In this document: positions 3,482 to 54,796 of the stretch, piece by piece
Numbering within the stretch: position 1 is the first letter of the stretch
Layout of the letters: each line of letters opens with the position of its first letter
NCBI GenBank assembly: GCA_040221175.1
Contig: JAVJVK010000001.1
Location: 62,001 to 126,000, forward strand
Length of the DNA stretch: 64,000 bases
Direction of reading: 5' to 3'
Source: Phycisphaerales bacterium
GTDB lineage: Bacteria > Planctomycetota > Phycisphaerae > Phycisphaerales > UBA1924
The notes under the pieces: generated by a model
What the model saw: the letters and a program-made list of their open reading frames with translations, nothing else
Told to the model about the DNA's origin: nothing
The model's database searches: none
Translations under genes and position numbers: made by a program

Positions 3482-3554
3482 GGGCAGATAGCTCAGTTGG
3501 TAGAGCACGGCATTGAAAATGCCGGTGTCCCCGGTTCAAGTCCGGGTCTGCCCA
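3482..3554 (+). tRNA. tRNA-Phe (anticodon GAA)
   Basis: A complete 73-base cloverleaf. The acceptor stem GGGCAGA (3482-3488) pairs with TCTGCCC (3547-3553), followed by discriminator A. The D arm reads AGCTCAGTTGGTAGAGC. The anticodon stem CGGCA/TGCCG encloses the loop TTGAAAA, giving anticodon GAA for phenylalanine. The T arm is CCCGGTTCAAGTCCGGG. No CCA is encoded. The gene lies in the gap between the divergent Alg14-like gene and the lipoprotein gene, 55 bases before the latter, so the two may share a transcript. Confidence 0.97.
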
Positions 3555-48643: not shown

Positions 48644-49396
48644 ATGGACGACGCAAGCCTGCTTGGACCGGTCATCGATCTCAATGCCGACGCCGGCGAG
48701 CGCGATGACCTGCTCGCCAGCGACAGCGCGTTGCTGGGCCTGGTGACGTCGGTCAACGTTGCGTGCGGCGGGCACGCCGGCACTGAGCAACTGATGCGAG
48801 CGGTGATCAGACGTGCGGCCGACCAGGGTGTTGCGATCGGAGCCCACCCGGGATTCGCCGACCCGGAGGGGTTCGGCCGTAAAGATATGGGGCTCGCCCC
48901 TGATGCCGTCTATACGCTCTGCCGAGAGCAGGTTGGGCGATTGGCACGGGTGGCCGCCGCCGACGGGCTGACGCTCTCGCACGCGAAGCCCCACGGGGCG
49001 TTGTACCACCGGGCGATGACCGAGCCCGACGTGGCCGAAGCCGTCGGGCGTGGATGCCTCGATGCGGTGGCGGAGGTCAGCGGCGACCCGTTCGCGTCGC
49101 TGGTGTTCTTCGGGCTGCCGAAGACCCCCGGCATCGCCCGGTGGGAAGAGATGGACCTTCCCGTGCGGCGCGAGGGTTTTGCCGATCGCCGGTACGGATC
49201 CGATGGCTCGCTGATTGCTCGCAGCGAACCCGACGCGGTGCTTCACGATGCCGGGGCCGCGGCCGCTCAGGCCCTCTCGCTGGCCCGCAGCGGTGATTTC
49301 GACACGCTGTGCGTGCACGGTGACAGCCCCGAAGCGCTGGCGATCGCACGCGCCGTTCGCGAGGCGTTGCTCGCTGGGGGCGTGCGGGTCGGTTGA
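48644..49396 (+). CDS. pxpA: 5-oxoprolinase subunit PxpA (LamB/YcsF family)
   Basis: 250 residues from ATG 48644. The start VIDLNADAGERDDLLASDSA is the LamB/YcsF signature (usually DLNCDxGE); Ala replaces Cys. TSVNVACGGHAGTEQLMRAV, AIGAHPGFADPEGFGRKDMG and LSHAKPHGALYHRA are further conserved blocks with metal-binding histidines. GFADRRYGSDGSLIARSEPD and FDTLCVHGDSPEALAIARAV close the family pattern. This is the catalytic-type subunit of 5-oxoprolinase with PxpB and PxpC. An extension upstream is open but has no family features. The histidine leader region begins 20 bases after its stop. Confidence 0.92.
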   Translation: MDDASLLGPVIDLNADAGERDDLLASDSALLGLVTSVNVACGGHAGTEQLMRAVIRRAADQGVAIGAHPGFADPEGFGRKDMGLAPDAVYTLCREQVGRLARVAAADGLTLSHAKPHGALYHRAMTEPDVAEAVGRGCLDAVAEVSGDPFASLVFFGLPKTPGIARWEEMDLPVRREGFADRRYGSDGSLIARSEPDAVLHDAGAAAAQALSLARSGDFDTLCVHGDSPEALAIARAVREALLAGGVRVG

Positions 49397-49415
49397 CCGC
49401 GCACGGGATGGGCGC

Positions 49416-49443
49416 TTGACCGGCGTCGGAGCAAGGCTAATGT
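49416..49443 (+). promoter_or_regulatory. candidate promoter of the histidine operon
   Basis: TTGACC (49416-49421) and TAATGT (49438-49443) have a 16-base spacer. A start about seven bases beyond would fall at 49450-49451, immediately before the ATG at 49452, which would make the leader peptide mRNA leaderless. If so, the alternative leader start at 49440 lies outside the transcript. Transcription from further upstream is the other option. Confidence 0.45.
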
Positions 49444-49520
49444 CTGCCGAGATGAATCGACCCACGTTCCATCATCATGTCCATGCCAAGCACCCGCGAG
49501 GGAGCCGGATGTGCGCGTGA
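49440..49520 (+). CDS. hisL: histidine operon leader peptide
   Basis: A 26-codon open frame (22 if it starts at ATG 49452) just upstream of hisG. It holds the run FHHHVHAKH: five histidine codons within eight positions, in an otherwise short, functionless peptide ending RMCA. Histidine is rare, so the cluster is very unlikely by chance, and it resembles the enterobacterial HisL peptide with its seven consecutive His. ATG 49440 has GGAG (49428-49431) eight bases upstream; ATG 49452 would fit a leaderless transcript. Ribosomes should stall on the His codons (CAT at 49470-49478 and 49482-49484, CAC at 49491-49493) when charged tRNA-His is scarce. See the paired structures downstream. Confidence 0.8.
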   Translation: MSAEMNRPTFHHHVHAKHPRGSRMCA

Positions 49521-49562
49521 TCTGATGGATCGTTGATCCGTAGGACGCAAACGCCGGCCCCC
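49500..49562 (+). promoter_or_regulatory. predicted antiterminator of the histidine attenuator
   Basis: GGGAGCCGG (49500-49508), inside the leader-peptide frame, can pair with CCGGCCCCC (49554-49562) with one A-C mismatch. This occupies most of the left arm and loop of the terminator at 49549-49576, so the two structures exclude each other. A ribosome stalled at the third or fourth His codon would leave 49500-49508 free and favour antitermination. One that reaches the TGA (49518-49520) would cover it and let the terminator form. This is inferred from base pairing read by eye. Confidence 0.65.
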
Positions 49563-49576
49563 GAGCCGGCGTTTTT
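49549..49576 (+). terminator. intrinsic terminator (attenuator) upstream of hisG
   Basis: ACGCCGGC (49551-49558) pairs with GCCGGCGT (49565-49572) around CCCCGA, extended by two A-T pairs, and followed by TTTTTC. It lies 61-88 bases before hisG and 29 bases after the leader-peptide stop, with no gene ending just upstream except that peptide. This is where an attenuator is expected. Confidence 0.85.
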
Positions 49577-49636
49577 CGTGCACGGGCAGCGTCCTCGTGC
49601 GGGAGCGTCGGCGGGGGCCAGGCCCGGAGCCGACCG

Positions 49637-50524
49637 ATGACCGTCATGCAGGAAGCCGTCGCGACCGCGACGACGATCAAGTTCGCGATTCCCAAGGGGC
49701 GGATGTTCGAGGGCGTGCGCCGGTTGCTGGCCGACGGCGGCATCGACATTCGTTCGACCGAGCGCGGCTATCGGCCATCGGTGCCGTTGCCGGGCTTTGG
49801 TGTGAAGCTGCTGAAGCCGCGCGCGATCGTGGAGATGCTCGACGCCGGGGCGCGAGACCTTGGCTTTGCCGGAGCCGACTGGGTGCGCGAGACCGGGGCG
49901 GACCTGGTCGAAGTGGTGGATACGGGGCTGGATCGGGTTCGGCTGGTCGCGGCGGCGCCGGCAGGACTGCTAGAGGATGGTCGGTTGCCCGACCGATCTC
50001 TGGTGGTCGCCTCCGAGTACGAGCGGATCGCGCGGGCATGGATCAAAGAGCGCGGGCTGGATGCGACGCTGCTGCGGTCGTATGGCGCGACCGAAGTGCT
50101 GCCGCCCGAAGACGCCGACTGCATCATTGACAACACCGCAACCGGCGCCACCCTGGCTGCCAATGGGCTGGTGATCATCGATGAGCTTATGACCTCTTCG
50201 ACTCGGCTGTATGCGTCGCGGGCGGCGATGGAAGACCCTCGCAAGCGCGAGCAGGTCCAGCGGATCGGGCTCATCGTGCGGTCCGTGCTGGAAGCACGTC
50301 AACGCGTGATGATCGAGATCAACGTGCCGGCGGAAAAGCTCGATGCGGTGGTCGGCGTGCTGCCGTGCATGCGTGAGCCCACGGTGTCTGCGCTGCGGTC
50401 GCAGTCTGGCTTTGCGGTGAAGGCGGCGGTGCGGCGGAGCGAACTGGCCGAGGTCGTGCCGATGGTCAAGCAGTTGGGTGGGACGGACATCGTGGTGACC
50501 CGGCCGGAGCAGATCGTGCCATGA
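49637..50524 (+). CDS. hisG: ATP phosphoribosyltransferase HisG (long form)
   Basis: 295 residues, the self-sufficient long form that does not need HisZ. It condenses ATP and PRPP, the first and committed step of histidine synthesis. KFAIPKGRMFEGVRRLLADG opens the catalytic domain; LGFAGADWVRETGADLVEVV and YGATEVLPPEDADCIIDNTA (then TGATLAANGLVIIDEL) bind PRPP. The last 80 residues form the ACT-like regulatory domain that binds histidine for feedback inhibition (IEINVPAEKLDAVVGVLPCM; QLGGTDIVVTRPEQIVP). The ATG 49637 follows GGAG by seven bases. It is the first structural gene after the attenuator and its stop overlaps hisC by four bases. Confidence 0.95.
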   Translation: MTVMQEAVATATTIKFAIPKGRMFEGVRRLLADGGIDIRSTERGYRPSVPLPGFGVKLLKPRAIVEMLDAGARDLGFAGADWVRETGADLVEVVDTGLDRVRLVAAAPAGLLEDGRLPDRSLVVASEYERIARAWIKERGLDATLLRSYGATEVLPPEDADCIIDNTATGATLAANGLVIIDELMTSSTRLYASRAAMEDPRKREQVQRIGLIVRSVLEARQRVMIEINVPAEKLDAVVGVLPCMREPTVSALRSQSGFAVKAAVRRSELAEVVPMVKQLGGTDIVVTRPEQIVP

Positions 50525-51573
50525 GCGTTGCGACCAAAGACATACCGCTTCGGCCGGCGGCGCGGCTGACGGGGCTCACGCCCTATGGCACGGGTAGCGT
50601 GCGATCACCGGATGCGCTGCTTCTGGACGCCAACGAGGGGCCGTCCGCTTCCAAGGCGTGGCTCGATCGATTGCACGCCGTTGATGCCGAGGCGTTGCGG
50701 CGGTATCCGGAGGCCGGCGATCTCGAAGCGGCGCTTGCGGAGCAATTCGGAGTCGACGCCGGCTGCGTCGTGCTCACGGCGGGAGGCGACGACGCGATCG
50801 ATCGCATCTGCCGGGTATCTCTCGAGCCCGGACGCGTGCTGGTCGTACACACGCCGACGTTCGAAATGATCACGCGTGGAGCGATGCTGGCGGGCGCTGA
50901 GGTTCGCGCCGTGCCGTGGATGAGCGGCCGCTTTCCGGTCGAGGCGTTCGAGGCGGCGATCTCGCCCGATACGGGCCTGGTCGCGATCGTTTCACCAAAT
51001 AATCCAACGGGCGGCGTGGTATCGGTCGAGGACATCGAGCGTGTGTGCCGGGTGGCGCGAGGGGTTAGCGCGTTTGTGCTGGTCGATCTGGCGTACGTCG
51101 AGTACGCCGATGAAGACCCGACGGCGCGGCTCACGGAATTCGACAACGTAGTAATTGTGCGGACGTTCTCCAAGGCGTTCGGCCTGGCCGGATTGCGCGT
51201 CGGCTATGCGATCGCGAGCGAGCCGGTTGCCGGATGGTTGCGCACGGTGGGGGGGCCGTATCCAGTGTCGGCTCCCGGGCTTGCGGTCGCGGGGCTGGCG
51301 CTCGAGACGGGTGTAGATGGTGCGTACCTGAGCCGCATCAGGCAAGAGCGGAGCGCATTGATCGACTGGCTTCGTGGCCGGGAGATCGACGTGCAGGATT
51401 CGCAGGCGAACTTCGTGCTCGCGCGCGTCGATGCCGATCGGCTGGCAAACGTCGGCGTCGTCGTCCGGGCGTTCCGTGGCGAACTGGCCGGCTGGGCGCG
51501 GATCTCGCTGCCCGGTGACGACCGTTTGTTTGCACAATTGTTGGACGCGCTGGCGGAGGTGTGCGGTGACTGA
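50521..51573 (+). CDS. hisC: histidinol-phosphate aminotransferase HisC
   Basis: 350 residues, fold-type I PLP aminotransferase. It converts imidazole-acetol phosphate and glutamate to histidinol phosphate. Seen: LLLDANEGPSASKAWLDRLH and RRYPEAGDLEAALAEQF at the start, VLTAGGDDAIDRICR, IVSPNNPTGGVVSVEDIERV and LVDLAYVEY around the cofactor. The PLP-binding Lys is in VRTFSKAFGLAGLRVGYAIA. It overlaps hisG by four bases (ATGA) and hisB by eight. No other his paralogue is needed for this step. Confidence 0.94.
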   Translation: MSVATKDIPLRPAARLTGLTPYGTGSVRSPDALLLDANEGPSASKAWLDRLHAVDAEALRRYPEAGDLEAALAEQFGVDAGCVVLTAGGDDAIDRICRVSLEPGRVLVVHTPTFEMITRGAMLAGAEVRAVPWMSGRFPVEAFEAAISPDTGLVAIVSPNNPTGGVVSVEDIERVCRVARGVSAFVLVDLAYVEYADEDPTARLTEFDNVVIVRTFSKAFGLAGLRVGYAIASEPVAGWLRTVGGPYPVSAPGLAVAGLALETGVDGAYLSRIRQERSALIDWLRGREIDVQDSQANFVLARVDADRLANVGVVVRAFRGELAGWARISLPGDDRLFAQLLDALAEVCGD

Positions 51574-52156
51574 TCGAAGGGCCCGAATCGAACGAACGAC
51601 ACGCGAGACGAAGATCGAGGCGTTGATCGATCTTGATGGCGTTGGCAATGGCGCAATCAATACGGGCATCGGCTTTCTGGATCACATGCTCAGCGCAGTC
51701 GCGCTGCACGGCCGGGTCGATCTCGATCTCACGTGCGAGGGCGACCTGGACGTCGACGATCACCACACTGTGGAGGACGTTGCGATCGTCGTTGGGCAGT
51801 TGGTCGATCAGGCCCTGGGCGATCGGACCGGCATCGTGCGGTTCGCCCACGCGTATGCGCCGCTGGACGAGGCGCTGGCGCGGGTGGTCGTCGACCTCTC
51901 GGGCCGCCCATCGGCGACGATCGCTCTCGGTCTGAAGCGCGAGATGCTCGGGGGCGTGGCCTGCGAAAACCTCACGCACTGGTTCGTCTCGTTCGCCACG
52001 GCCGCGCGGTGCGCCTTGCACGTCGACGTGCTGCGGGGCGAGAATGACCACCACAGGGCCGAGGCGGCGTTCAAGGCCTTCACGCTCGCGTTGCGCGGGG
52101 CGATTGCGATGGATCCGCGGCCGGCGGGCGTGCCATCGACCAAGGGGGTGCTGTGA
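51566..52156 (+). CDS. hisB: imidazoleglycerol-phosphate dehydratase HisB
   Basis: 196 residues from GTG 51566, with GGAGGT eight bases upstream inside the hisC end. It dehydrates imidazole-glycerol phosphate with two Mn ions. RIERTTRETKIEALIDLDGV opens the protein. The paired metal motifs are GFLDHMLSAVALHGRVDLDL and DDHHTVEDVAIVVGQ in the first half, then CENLTHWFVSFATAA and ENDHHRAEAAFKAFTLALRG in the second. This is the monofunctional form; it has no N-terminal histidinol phosphatase domain, and no such enzyme is in the operon. Confidence 0.95.
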   Translation: MTDRRARIERTTRETKIEALIDLDGVGNGAINTGIGFLDHMLSAVALHGRVDLDLTCEGDLDVDDHHTVEDVAIVVGQLVDQALGDRTGIVRFAHAYAPLDEALARVVVDLSGRPSATIALGLKREMLGGVACENLTHWFVSFATAARCALHVDVLRGENDHHRAEAAFKAFTLALRGAIAMDPRPAGVPSTKGVL

Positions 52157-52755
52157 TGGTGTCGATCGTGCAAACCGGAGTTGCGAATACGGCATCCGTC
52201 GTTGCGGCGTTCGAGCGTTGCGGCGTGGAGGCGACGCGAGCGGCAACGGCCGGGGACGTCGAGGCCGCGTCGTTGCTCGTGCTGCCGGGCGTGGGGTCGT
52301 TCGGCGCCGGCATGGAGGCATTGCGGGCGGCGGGAATTGTCGACGTCCTGCGGGCGCGGATCGAGGCGGATCGGCCCACGCTGGCGATCTGCCTGGGGAT
52401 GCAGCTCTTGTGCGCCTCGTCCGAGGAATCCCCGGGCGTCGAGGGGCTGGGCGTGATCGATGCACGGGTCGAAAGTCTGTCGCAACCACCCAAGCCGCGG
52501 TTTGGATGGAACCGCGTGGCGCCCGAGGCCGGGTGCGAGGTAATCACGGAGGGCTTTGCGTACTACGCGAACTCCTTCGGCGTGCGCGAGCGGCCGGCGG
52601 GCTGGGCGTGCGCGACGTCGGCGCTCGAGGCGCCCTTCGTGGGCGCGTTGCAGCGTGGCGCCGTCGTGGCGTGCCAGTTCCACCCGGAACTGTCGGGCCC
52701 GTGGGGGCTCGATCTGTTGCGGCGATGGATGGCGATGGAGGTGGCGGCATGCTGA
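52156..52755 (+). CDS. hisH: imidazole glycerol phosphate synthase glutaminase subunit HisH
   Basis: 199 residues from ATG 52156 (GTG 52153 just before it is possible). A class I glutamine amidotransferase: [19 protein letters not shown] gives the oxyanion region, [16 protein letters not shown] carries nucleophile Cys, and [17 protein letters not shown] the His/Glu. PRFGWNRV is a HisH-specific block. It supplies ammonia through a tunnel to HisF. The start overlaps the hisB stop by one base and the stop overlaps the hisF start by seven, giving the two subunits coupled synthesis. Confidence 0.94.
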
Positions 52756-53516
52756 CCAAGCGCGTGATCCCGTGCCTGGACGTCCGCGACGGGCGCATCG
52801 TCAAGGGTACGAGCTTTGCCAACCTGCGCGACGCGGGCGATCCGGTCGAGCGGGCGACGGCGTACGAGGCGCAGGGAGCCGACGAGCTCGTCATGCTTGA
52901 CGTGTCGGCGACGCCCGATGGTCGTGAGGCGGCCCTGCACACGGTCGGGGCGATTCGGCGGGCGATCTCGATCCCGCTGACCGTTGGGGGCGGCGTGCGC
53001 ACTGTCGCGCACGCGCGGGCGCTGCTGGAAGCCGGCGCCGACAAGGTGGGTGTGAACTCGGCGGCGGTCGATCGGCCAGAGCTCTTGACCGAGATTGCCG
53101 AGCGCATGGGGGGCCAGTGCGTGGTGCTGGCGATCGACGCGGCGCGCGCGGGCTATTCGTGGGAGGTCGTCACGCGATCGGGCACGCAGCGCACGGGCAT
53201 CGACGCGGTGGCGTGGGCGCGCGCCGGCGTGGCGGCAGGCGCGGGCGAGATCCTGCTGACCAGCTTCGACCAGGACGGCCGCGGCAACGGGTACGACCTG
53301 GCGTTGATCCGGTCGGTCGCGAGCGCGGTCAACGTCTCGATCATCGCCTCGGGTGGGGCGTCGACGGCTGCGCACATGGCCCAAGGCTTCGAGGCCGGGG
53401 CCGACGCGGTGCTGGCGGCGTCGATCTTCCACGACGGCGTGACGAGCGTGGGCGAACTGAAGGGCGAGCTGGCGGCCGCGGGCGTGCCGGTGCGGACCAT
53501 GGAGGTGGCGCGATGA
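52749..53516 (+). CDS. hisF: imidazole glycerol phosphate synthase cyclase subunit HisF
   Basis: 255 residues, a (beta-alpha)8 barrel. [20 protein letters not shown] has the catalytic Asp of the first strand (CLDV), [20 protein letters not shown] and [20 protein letters not shown] bind phosphate, VVLAIDAAR holds the second catalytic Asp, and [20 protein letters not shown] with [20 protein letters not shown] complete the family pattern. HisF-HisH makes imidazole glycerol phosphate and AICAR. It overlaps hisH and the next gene by seven and four bases. Confidence 0.96.
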
Positions 53517-54796
53517 TGGTTCCATCGGTGGATCTTCGCGGCGGCAATGCCGTGCAGCTCGTGGGTGGCAGGAAGCTGGCGGTCGATGCGGGCGATCCGG
53601 TGCCGATCGCCGAGCGCTTCGGCCTGGTGGGCGAGGTCGCGGTCATCGACCTGGACGCGGCGATGGGCAGTGGCTCGAACCGCGCCGTGGTGCTCGATCT
53701 GGTGCGGCGGGTGCCGTGCCGGGTGGGCGGGGGCATTCGCGATGCGCAGTCGGCGATCGAGCTCTTGGACGCGGGAGCACGCCGGGTCATCCTGGGAACG
53801 GCCGCACGCCCCGACGTGCTTCGCGAGCTGCCGCGCGAGCGCGTGATCGCCGCCTTGGACGCCCGCGATGGCGAGGTGGTCGACCAGGGCTGGACGCGCG
53901 GCACGGGCCGGCGCGTCGAGGATCGCATCGCCGAGCTGCGCGACTATGTCGGCGGGTTCCTCGTCACGTTCGTCGAGCAGGAGGGCGGGCTCGGCGGGTG
54001 GAGCGAGCCCCAGCTCGAGCGGATCGCCGCGCTTGTTGATCTGGCCGGGCCGGCGCGGCTGACGGTGGCGGGGGGCGTGAAGACGCCGGCGGACGTCGCG
54101 GCGGTCGATCGCCTGGGCGCCGATGCGCAGGTGGGCATGGCGCTGTACACCGGGGCGTTCGACCTGGCCGAGGGCTTCTGTGCACCGCTCACGAGCGACC
54201 GGCCCGACGGGCTGTGGCCGACCATCGTGGCCGACCCCGGTGGGCGCGCGCTCGGGCTGGTGTACTCGAACCTGGACTCGGTGCGGGCGTCGATCGAGCG
54301 GCGGCGGGGCGTGTACTACTCGCGATCGCGCAGCGGGCTGTGGGCCAAGGGGGAGTCGTCTGGCAATACGCAGGAACTCCTGGGCATCTCGGCCGACTGC
54401 GACCGCGATGCCTTGCGGTTCACCGTGCGGCAGCGCGGGCCGTTCTGCCACACCGGGACGACCACGTGCTTCGGCGCATCGCGGGGCATGGCGAGCCTGG
54501 ACCAAGCACTGGAACAGCGGATGCTGGCGCCGCCGGCGGGCTCGTACACCGCGCGGCTGCTCGGTGGTCCCTCGCTGCTGAAGGCCAAGCTGCTCGAAGA
54601 AGCCGAAGAACTGATAGACGCGTCTTCGCCCCAAGCGGCGGCGCACGAGGCGGCCGACGTCGCGTACTTCGCGCTCGTGGCCGCGCGGGCGCGGGGGGCA
54701 TCGCTCGAGGACGTCGAACGCGAACTGGACCAACGCGGCCTGCGCATAACGCGCCGGCCGGGCAACGCGAAAGTGAAGACGGGGAACGCGTCATGA
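53513..54796 (+). CDS. hisA: HisA-HisI-HisE trifunctional fusion
   Basis: 427 residues. Residues 1-222 are HisA, ProFAR isomerase: SVDLRGGNAVQLVGG with catalytic Asp7, VIDLDAAMGSGSNR, RVGGGIRDAQSAIELLDAGA, AALDARDG with the second Asp, and TVAGGVKTPADVAAVDRLGA. Residues about 228-322 are HisI, PRA-CH: VYYSRSRSGLWAKGESSGNT, then DCDRDAL (metal-binding Asp295/297/299 with Cys296) and CHTGTTTCF with Cys312 and Cys319. Residues about 327-410 are HisE, PRA-PH: the KLLEEAEELIDA and HEAADVAYFALVAARARG motifs. The chain has no internal stop or start near the joints. It would catalyse steps 2, 3 and 4 in one protein. ATG 53513 overlaps the hisF stop; ATG 53516 is also usable. Confidence 0.93.
   Translation: MMVPSVDLRGGNAVQLVGGRKLAVDAGDPVPIAERFGLVGEVAVIDLDAAMGSGSNRAVVLDLVRRVPCRVGGGIRDAQSAIELLDAGARRVILGTAARPDVLRELPRERVIAALDARDGEVVDQGWTRGTGRRVEDRIAELRDYVGGFLVTFVEQEGGLGGWSEPQLERIAALVDLAGPARLTVAGGVKTPADVAAVDRLGADAQVGMALYTGAFDLAEGFCAPLTSDRPDGLWPTIVADPGGRALGLVYSNLDSVRASIERRRGVYYSRSRSGLWAKGESSGNTQELLGISADCDRDALRFTVRQRGPFCHTGTTTCFGASRGMASLDQALEQRMLAPPAGSYTARLLGGPSLLKAKLLEEAEELIDASSPQAAAHEAADVAYFALVAARARGASLEDVERELDQRGLRITRRPGNAKVKTGNAS

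Follow-up and report, generated by a model that had tools for sequence, protein, structure and literature searches.

Among the closest described systems, the enterobacterial his attenuator (hisL; RF00514) has a His-rich leader peptide, an intrinsic terminator and mutually exclusive RNA pairings ahead of the hisG operon, as set out in an excerpt of PMC9413887. The same excerpt describes his attenuators in the Bacillus cereus group, Peptostreptococcaceae and Erysipelotrichales, which likewise have a His leader peptide, a terminator and an antiterminator upstream of his genes. The his attenuators documented in PMC9413887 and PMC4833913 belong to Gammaproteobacteria and some Firmicutes; the Firmicutes examples come from few groups, the text of PMC9413887 makes no mention of planctomycetes, and its passages on these attenuators say nothing about leaderless starts. 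Before the His leader that they reported in bacilli, Naville and Gautheret (2010) knew of leader peptide systems in Proteobacteria and Actinobacteria only, apart from the atypical ermC (PMC2965389).

Leaderless leader peptides have been described for other amino acid genes. In S. meliloti, the 5' end of the trpL transcript is the ATG of the leader peptide, and attenuation is ribosome-dependent (PMC7298713). Leaderless leader peptides precede amino acid genes in Streptomyces lividans (PMC8079986), the ilvB leader of Corynebacterium diphtheriae is leaderless (PMC5784534), and a leaderless leader peptide has been discussed for C. glutamicum ilvBNC (PMC11857589). No His leader is found among the eight leaders listed for S. 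lividans or the three for C. diphtheriae, both Actinobacteria.

Here, we describe a locus of a Phycisphaerales bacterium that is very probably a ribosome-mediated transcription attenuator of the his operon, with a leader peptide read from a leaderless mRNA. The locus lies within a stretch of 64,000 nucleotides (the window), and has the following features.

49416-49421, plus strand: putative -35 box TTGACC, from the sequence, with a TTGAC-type box peak 33-39 nt 5' of the leader start in relatives
49438-49443, plus strand: putative -10 box TAATGT, from the sequence, with a spacer of 16 to the -35 box
49452-49520, plus strand: leader peptide ORF MNRPTFHHHVHAKHPRGSRMCA, 22 codons and TGA at 49518-49520
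49468-49480, plus strand: segment 1, the His-codon arm of the putative anti-antiterminator hairpin, from the minimum free energy fold and the own-versus-swapped test
49470-49493, plus strand: putative regulatory His codons, from the sequence, with a His block in 101 of 120 hisG-upstream regions
49500-49508, plus strand: segment 2 (5' part), GGGAGCCGG, the putative antiterminator arm inside the ORF, partner 49554-49562, from fold, swap tests and covariation
49515-49529, plus strand: segment 2 (3' part), the stop-codon region pairing with segment 1, from fold and own-versus-swapped test
49549-49558, plus strand: segment 3, the terminator left arm, which with the start of the loop forms the antiterminator 3' arm, from fold and covariation
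49565-49576, plus strand: segment 4, the terminator right arm and T-run, from fold and covariation
49637-50524, plus strand: hisG, ATP phosphoribosyltransferase, long form, NCBIfam TIGR00070 and TIGR03455 above cut-off
50521-54796, plus strand: remaining his genes of the operon (hisC, hisB, hisH, hisF, then hisA and hisIE fused in one frame), from NCBIfam

A preliminary description of the locus, made from the letters of the window, had placed hisG next after the leader, and the two model matches bear this out. HisG, HisB, HisH, HisF and the HisE part score over their curated NCBIfam cut-offs and the HisC, HisA and HisIE models below theirs; the gene set and order leave the identity of the operon scarcely in doubt. 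Gene bounds were picked from the ORF list, and that of the hisB start is provisional. The hisA and hisIE genes seem to be fused in one frame at 53513-54796 (HisA model, residues 2-221; HisIE model, 228-408). Upstream of the leader, a pxpA-like gene on the same strand ends at 49396, its best NCBIfam model reaching 219.7 bits against a cut-off of 226.

The His-rich frame has 22 codons from ATG 49452, or 26 if read from the in-frame ATG 49440, which agrees with the 22-26 codons first proposed; ATG 49440 falls within the proposed -10 box, and 8 nt separate that box from ATG 49452. The His codons are CAT CAT CAT at 49470-49478, CAT at 49482-49484 and CAC at 49491-49493. The ten-pair terminator and T-run first noted at 49549-49576 are present there: the hairpin AAACGCCGGC-CCCCGA-GCCGGCGTTT (49549-49574, -17.3 kcal/mol) is followed by TT, so that three of the five T (49572-49576) lie inside the stem. 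The proposed antiterminator also forms in silico, with GGGAGCCGG pairing to CCGGCCCCC (49554-49562) at eight of nine positions with one A-C mismatch (-17.6 kcal/mol); its longest ungapped block is just 5 pairs. In addition, the His codons at 49468-49480 pair with the stop-codon region at 49515-49529, a pairing absent from the preliminary description that would serve as anti-antiterminator in a complete attenuator.

The fold of 49416-49580 was only moderately more stable than its shuffles (z -2.09; 5 of 200 shuffles did as well), and generic promoter and terminator scans of the window flagged neither the leader promoter nor this terminator. Support for the attenuator therefore rests on conservation and not on a single sequence; the window sequence by itself is suggestive, and the weight comes from relatives. 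At gathering thresholds no Rfam family matched the leader, no T-box riboswitch was matched upstream of hisG, and the sole match in the window was a tRNA (3482-3554). At E values up to 10, the region around the leader (49300-49700) gave three unrelated families only, below their gathering scores. The His_leader family RF00514 was likewise not matched in the window at gathering, nor under stricter filters in any of 41 genomes of this lineage; the E. coli and C. glutamicum controls both gave matches, one of them over cut-off. Unlike the enterobacterial his attenuator, the planctomycete leader is predicted to be leaderless, and its segment 2 takes in the stop codon, an arrangement closer to that of a 1-2-3-4 trp attenuator.

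A HisG of the window type is present in 86 of the 163 genomes of the family, and 83 of these were fetched besides the window; one (L081) had no upstream sequence, giving 83 family regions including that of the window. To these were added 29 regions out of 31 matches listed for further families in the order and class, which were sampled from larger groups (HisG identity 45-66%), and 8 regions fetched of many with a distant HisG at about 33% identity. A His block, defined as at least four His codons in ten within an open frame, was found in 78 of the 83 family regions, 23 of the 29 near-HisG regions from other families and none of the 8 distant-HisG regions (101/120 in total, with L082 and L112, which reach four or more His through chance frames, counted as misses). 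The expectation that relatives would share the His codons upstream of hisG was thus borne out. The misses include all five near-HisG regions with identity below 50%, and L093, which has three His in its block. In a blind count, ORFs of 8-70 codons with at least four His in ten occurred in 102 of 120 regions on the coding strand and in 3 of 120 on the reverse strand, and the His-rich frame is therefore more than chance; the same count gave 62 (coding) and 79 (reverse) for Arg and 45 and 14 for Pro. Outside the His codons, the leader peptides differ widely by eye. The His-rich frames of L112, L082, L144 and L149 were set aside as chance frames or misreadings. The nearest named relatives carry the labels Phycisphaerae and Phycisphaeraceae, in agreement with the planctomycete source given in the preliminary description.

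Five family regions miss the block: L030, L038, L043 and L067, with at most three His in any ten-codon frame, and L082, which shows none. These exceptions may be decayed or changed leaders. Four members of one genus (g33; L030, L035, L038 and L067) have His-poor leaders, such as VTKALHQLHHCMKQHAAGVRR in L035, and those of them that were inspected retain promoter-like boxes and a hairpin by eye; these leaders may be decaying or carrying another signal. The leader frame of L043, MLFSQAHLACTQCHAAPGGPAFCM, contains three Cys and two His, and might respond to a signal other than histidine. A separate observation concerns the 77 of 163 family genomes with no match to the window-type HisG, 52 of which are among the 112 genomes with completeness of 90% or more and contamination of 5% or less; such genomes may rely on a different HisG or be without the pathway.

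Promoter position points to a leaderless message. Across the 101 leaders, a TTGAC-type box peaked 33-39 nt 5' of the start codon nearest the His block, and a NANNNT box peaked 4-10 nt 5' of it. The combined -35/-10 pattern, ending 4-11 nt before the leader start, was found in 82 leaders against 0.47 (sd 0.78) in shuffles, leaving 19 without it, and in 81 of the 82 the distance from the -10 box to the start codon was 5-10 nt. The usual distance from a -10 box to the transcript start is about 7 nt, so the transcripts are predicted to begin at the AUG or a few bases before it. SD-like 4-mers before the leader start were rarer than chance (3 of 101 against 8.3 in shuffles); counted permissively, they stand ahead of some candidate hisG start in 78 of the 101 regions. 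From the promoter distance and the rarity of SD-like motifs, the leader mRNA is predicted to be leaderless, beginning in the window about 0-3 nt 5' of ATG 49452. The suggestion that TTGACC/TAATGT implies a leaderless leader peptide, drawn originally from the one sequence, is in line with this; the spacings in the window are 16 and 8.

A perfect stem under -12 kcal/mol lies between leader and hisG in 93 of 103 regions, and the pairing tests used these 93; the ten left out are eight without such a stem and two chance frames. Sixty-four representatives share less than 75% HisG identity, of which 54 were within length limits and 49 were aligned, five being left out by hand. The terminator covaries strongly in this alignment, with 94.9% of cells paired and changes on both sides in seven of ten pairs. 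None of 500 shuffles was as high on paired cells, two-sided changes or covariation score, and slid registers reached at most 60.8% paired; the number of pair types was unremarkable (62 of 500 shuffles as high). For the antiterminator (2:3), 75.9% of cells were paired against 32.7-52.0% in six slid registers and 74.9% in shuffles (26 of 500 as high). Two-sided changes were seen in nine cells, where shuffles gave 4.9 (7 of 500 as high); the pair types did not differ from those of shuffles (292 of 500). The antiterminator core is nearly invariant across the aligned sequences, and the pairing is conserved with modest column covariation.

The consensus fold of the full leader recovered the terminator alone because the 5' part aligns poorly, and an alignment-free swap test was therefore used, in which RNA duplex energies are compared within and between genomes. 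For the 64 representatives, the 2:3 duplex averaged -19.6 kcal/mol within genomes and -18.3 kcal/mol when swapped, and the 1:2 duplex -19.6 against -18.1 kcal/mol; none of 5000 permutations reached either value, although these tests leave in place the ancestry shared below 75% HisG identity. All 93 loci gave -19.6 against -18.2 for 2:3 and -20.1 against -18.3 for 1:2. The expected covarying pairings were thus found for the terminator, and for the antiterminator in the swap tests, its column covariation being only modest. Segment 3 paired at -13.6 with the 43 nt 5' of the start codon, at -16.8 (49 loci) with sequence 3' of the terminator, which is GC-rich and pairs fairly well, and at -19.6 with segment 2. 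The longest ungapped 2:3 block had at least six pairs in 83 of 93 loci, and overlapped positions -15 to +11 relative to the stop codon in 89 of 93 (range searched, -27 to +15). When folded without the terminator, the His codons were paired to the stop region at a mean of 0.54 of bases, against 0.23 with a shuffled 3' part.

Individual loci illustrate the three-way relationship. In L023, segments 2 and 4 both read GGUCGGCG and segment 3 reads CGCCGACC, a three-way compensation of which L069 provides a second instance. Among 13 loci with a deviant segment 3, the own 2:3 pairing was worse than the mean of the others' in L076 and L105, and about equal in L056. A different candidate, a hairpin hiding the hisG ribosome-binding site that seemed conserved by eye, was rejected: mean SD pairing was 0.54 against 0.58 in shuffled surroundings (p = 0.39, 71 regions). 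Pairing above 0.7 was seen in 31 of the 71 regions against 10 by shuffle mean, figures that set single values against means and are not comparable.

These results are consistent with a model in which RNA polymerase would initiate at ATG 49452 or no more than a few bases away from it, and the 5'-terminal AUG would be bound by a ribosome. With ample His-tRNA, the ribosome would reach the stop codon (49518) and cover segment 2, so that the 3:4 hairpin forms and transcription terminates before hisG. When His-tRNA is scarce, a ribosome stalled on the His codons would keep segment 1 off segment 2, which would then be free to pair with segment 3, preventing the terminator and allowing the his genes to be transcribed. 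If no ribosome is present, 1:2 and 3:4 would form and transcription would stop. Sequence comparison backs the ORF, the His codons, the promoter distance, the absence of an SD and the three pairings, and we infer the stall, the coupling, the histidine response and the exact 5' end. The attenuator reading of the preliminary description is supported on this comparative basis.

A similar leader appears upstream of trpE in the genome of the window. The trpE match (L202, minus strand of contig C19; 444.8 bits, below the TIGR00564 cut-off of 517.7) is preceded by MSGPNPKSASKAIRSCGWWWRWHMGRGPVGLLRVI, which contains WWWRW, and by a promoter-like TTGACC-17-CATAAT-7-ATG. This Trp leader peptide is also predicted to be leaderless, and tryptophan is probably controlled by such a leader as well. 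TrpE was matched in 160 family genomes and 30 loci were read, with a frame criterion of two Trp in ten that is weak alone, no shuffled control, and the terminator judged by eye only. Where TrpE identity was 58-100%, 13 of 17 loci had a Trp-containing frame with such a promoter (L210 and L215 with weak spacing); L209, L214 and L218 lacked the combination, and L220 was unreadable upstream. None of the 13 loci with TrpE identity of 42-47% had the Trp frame and promoter together. Leaders of leuA and ilvB could not be examined in the window genome, as ilvB (TIGR00118) gave no match and leuA a weak one (TIGR00973, E 8.5e-6, far below cut-off); with a stated completeness of 100, branched-chain amino acid auxotrophy is possible.

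Other explanations of the his locus are less probable. The same type of attenuator could be transcribed from further upstream and initiate in the ordinary way, through an unusually spaced SD or with a 5' UTR of greater length. This would suit the 19 leaders without the promoter pattern and the in-frame ATG 49440, and the 5' end is itself predicted from sequence; we nevertheless consider an upstream start unlikely given that SD-like motifs are rarer than in shuffles, that the promoter box peaks 33-39 nt before the start codon, and that ATG 49440 lies within the -10 box. Runs of histidine bind metals, and the peptide might instead be a small metal-sensing or metal-binding protein, like those of copper-responsive upstream ORFs, with metal and not histidine as the signal. 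A copper-responsive upstream ORF is described in the literature. However, the ORF is tied to hisG, the peptides vary outside their His codons, the His codons participate in the 1:2 pairing and a comparable arrangement with Trp codons is seen at trpE in this genome, all of which make a metal signal very improbable. That the hairpin merely terminates the pxpA-like gene and the ORF arose by chance is barely credible: the gene is on the same strand and ends close by at 49396, but a promoter-like box pair stands between it and the hairpin, and the His frame, promoter and terminator are kept in most of the 101 regions of divergent relatives.

The leaderless his attenuator may not be confined to Planctomycetota. 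Among the best 80 of 386 named relatives, 54 carry the leader as assigned by hand, and 22 of these 54 are in genomes titled as other phyla: nine Spirochaetes, including a Treponema, the rest being Deltaproteobacteria, Myxococcota, Acidobacteria and their orders, Sumerlaeota, Acidimicrobiia and Proteobacteria. These other-phylum leaders sit in MAGs, in which binning can mislabel contigs. Twenty-six loci were inspected closer, namely these 22, three from Planctomycetota and L144, which was judged chance. A looser promoter pattern was present in 18 of the 26 (16 of the 22 other-phylum loci) and a stem of -12 kcal/mol or better in 24, both counts being made with no shuffled control. On a HisG tree of 81 rows, 55 with the leader, leader presence was clustered (15 changes against 22.3 when shuffled), a pattern that fits single origin, transfer and loss alike. 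Rows were labelled for the leader by hand, and the 26 rows scored 'none' include short upstream stretches (L163, L180 and L197) and several with three His codons, so that losses may be overcounted. We speculate that leaderless ribosome-mediated attenuation is general for Phycisphaerales amino acid operons, his and trp at least, and that in the leaderless his attenuator we see an old cassette that a single HisG lineage has kept, or that has travelled with it, across Planctomycetota, Spirochaetota, Acidobacteriota, Myxococcota, Pseudomonadota and others; taken jointly, we hold these two propositions to be slightly less probable than their negation.

The locus combines a His-codon ORF directly upstream of a his operon, an intrinsic terminator and an exclusive antiterminator of modest column covariation, as found in known attenuators, and shares with leaderless attenuators a promoter close to the leader start, here a sequence prediction. 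It has in common with S. meliloti trpL the leaderless start of the leader peptide, predicted in our case, and differs in that trpL concerns tryptophan in Alphaproteobacteria, whereas the present leader concerns histidine, and probably tryptophan in the same genome, in Planctomycetota. The class of mechanism is known; the lineage, the leaderless his leader and its RNA family are new as far as could be seen. No description of an attenuator, a leader peptide or leaderless attenuation in Planctomycetota was found in the open-access literature among the matches listed, which accords with the preliminary description, whose author knew of none.

Leader-peptide attenuation is known from Proteobacteria, Actinobacteria and some Firmicutes; with this finding its range would take in Planctomycetota as well as MAGs that bear the labels of several other phyla, and histidine sensing is predicted to be coupled to leaderless translation initiation. 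The alignment of leaders offers a starting point for a new RNA family, and the presence of two such operons, his and trp, in one genome permits a direct test.
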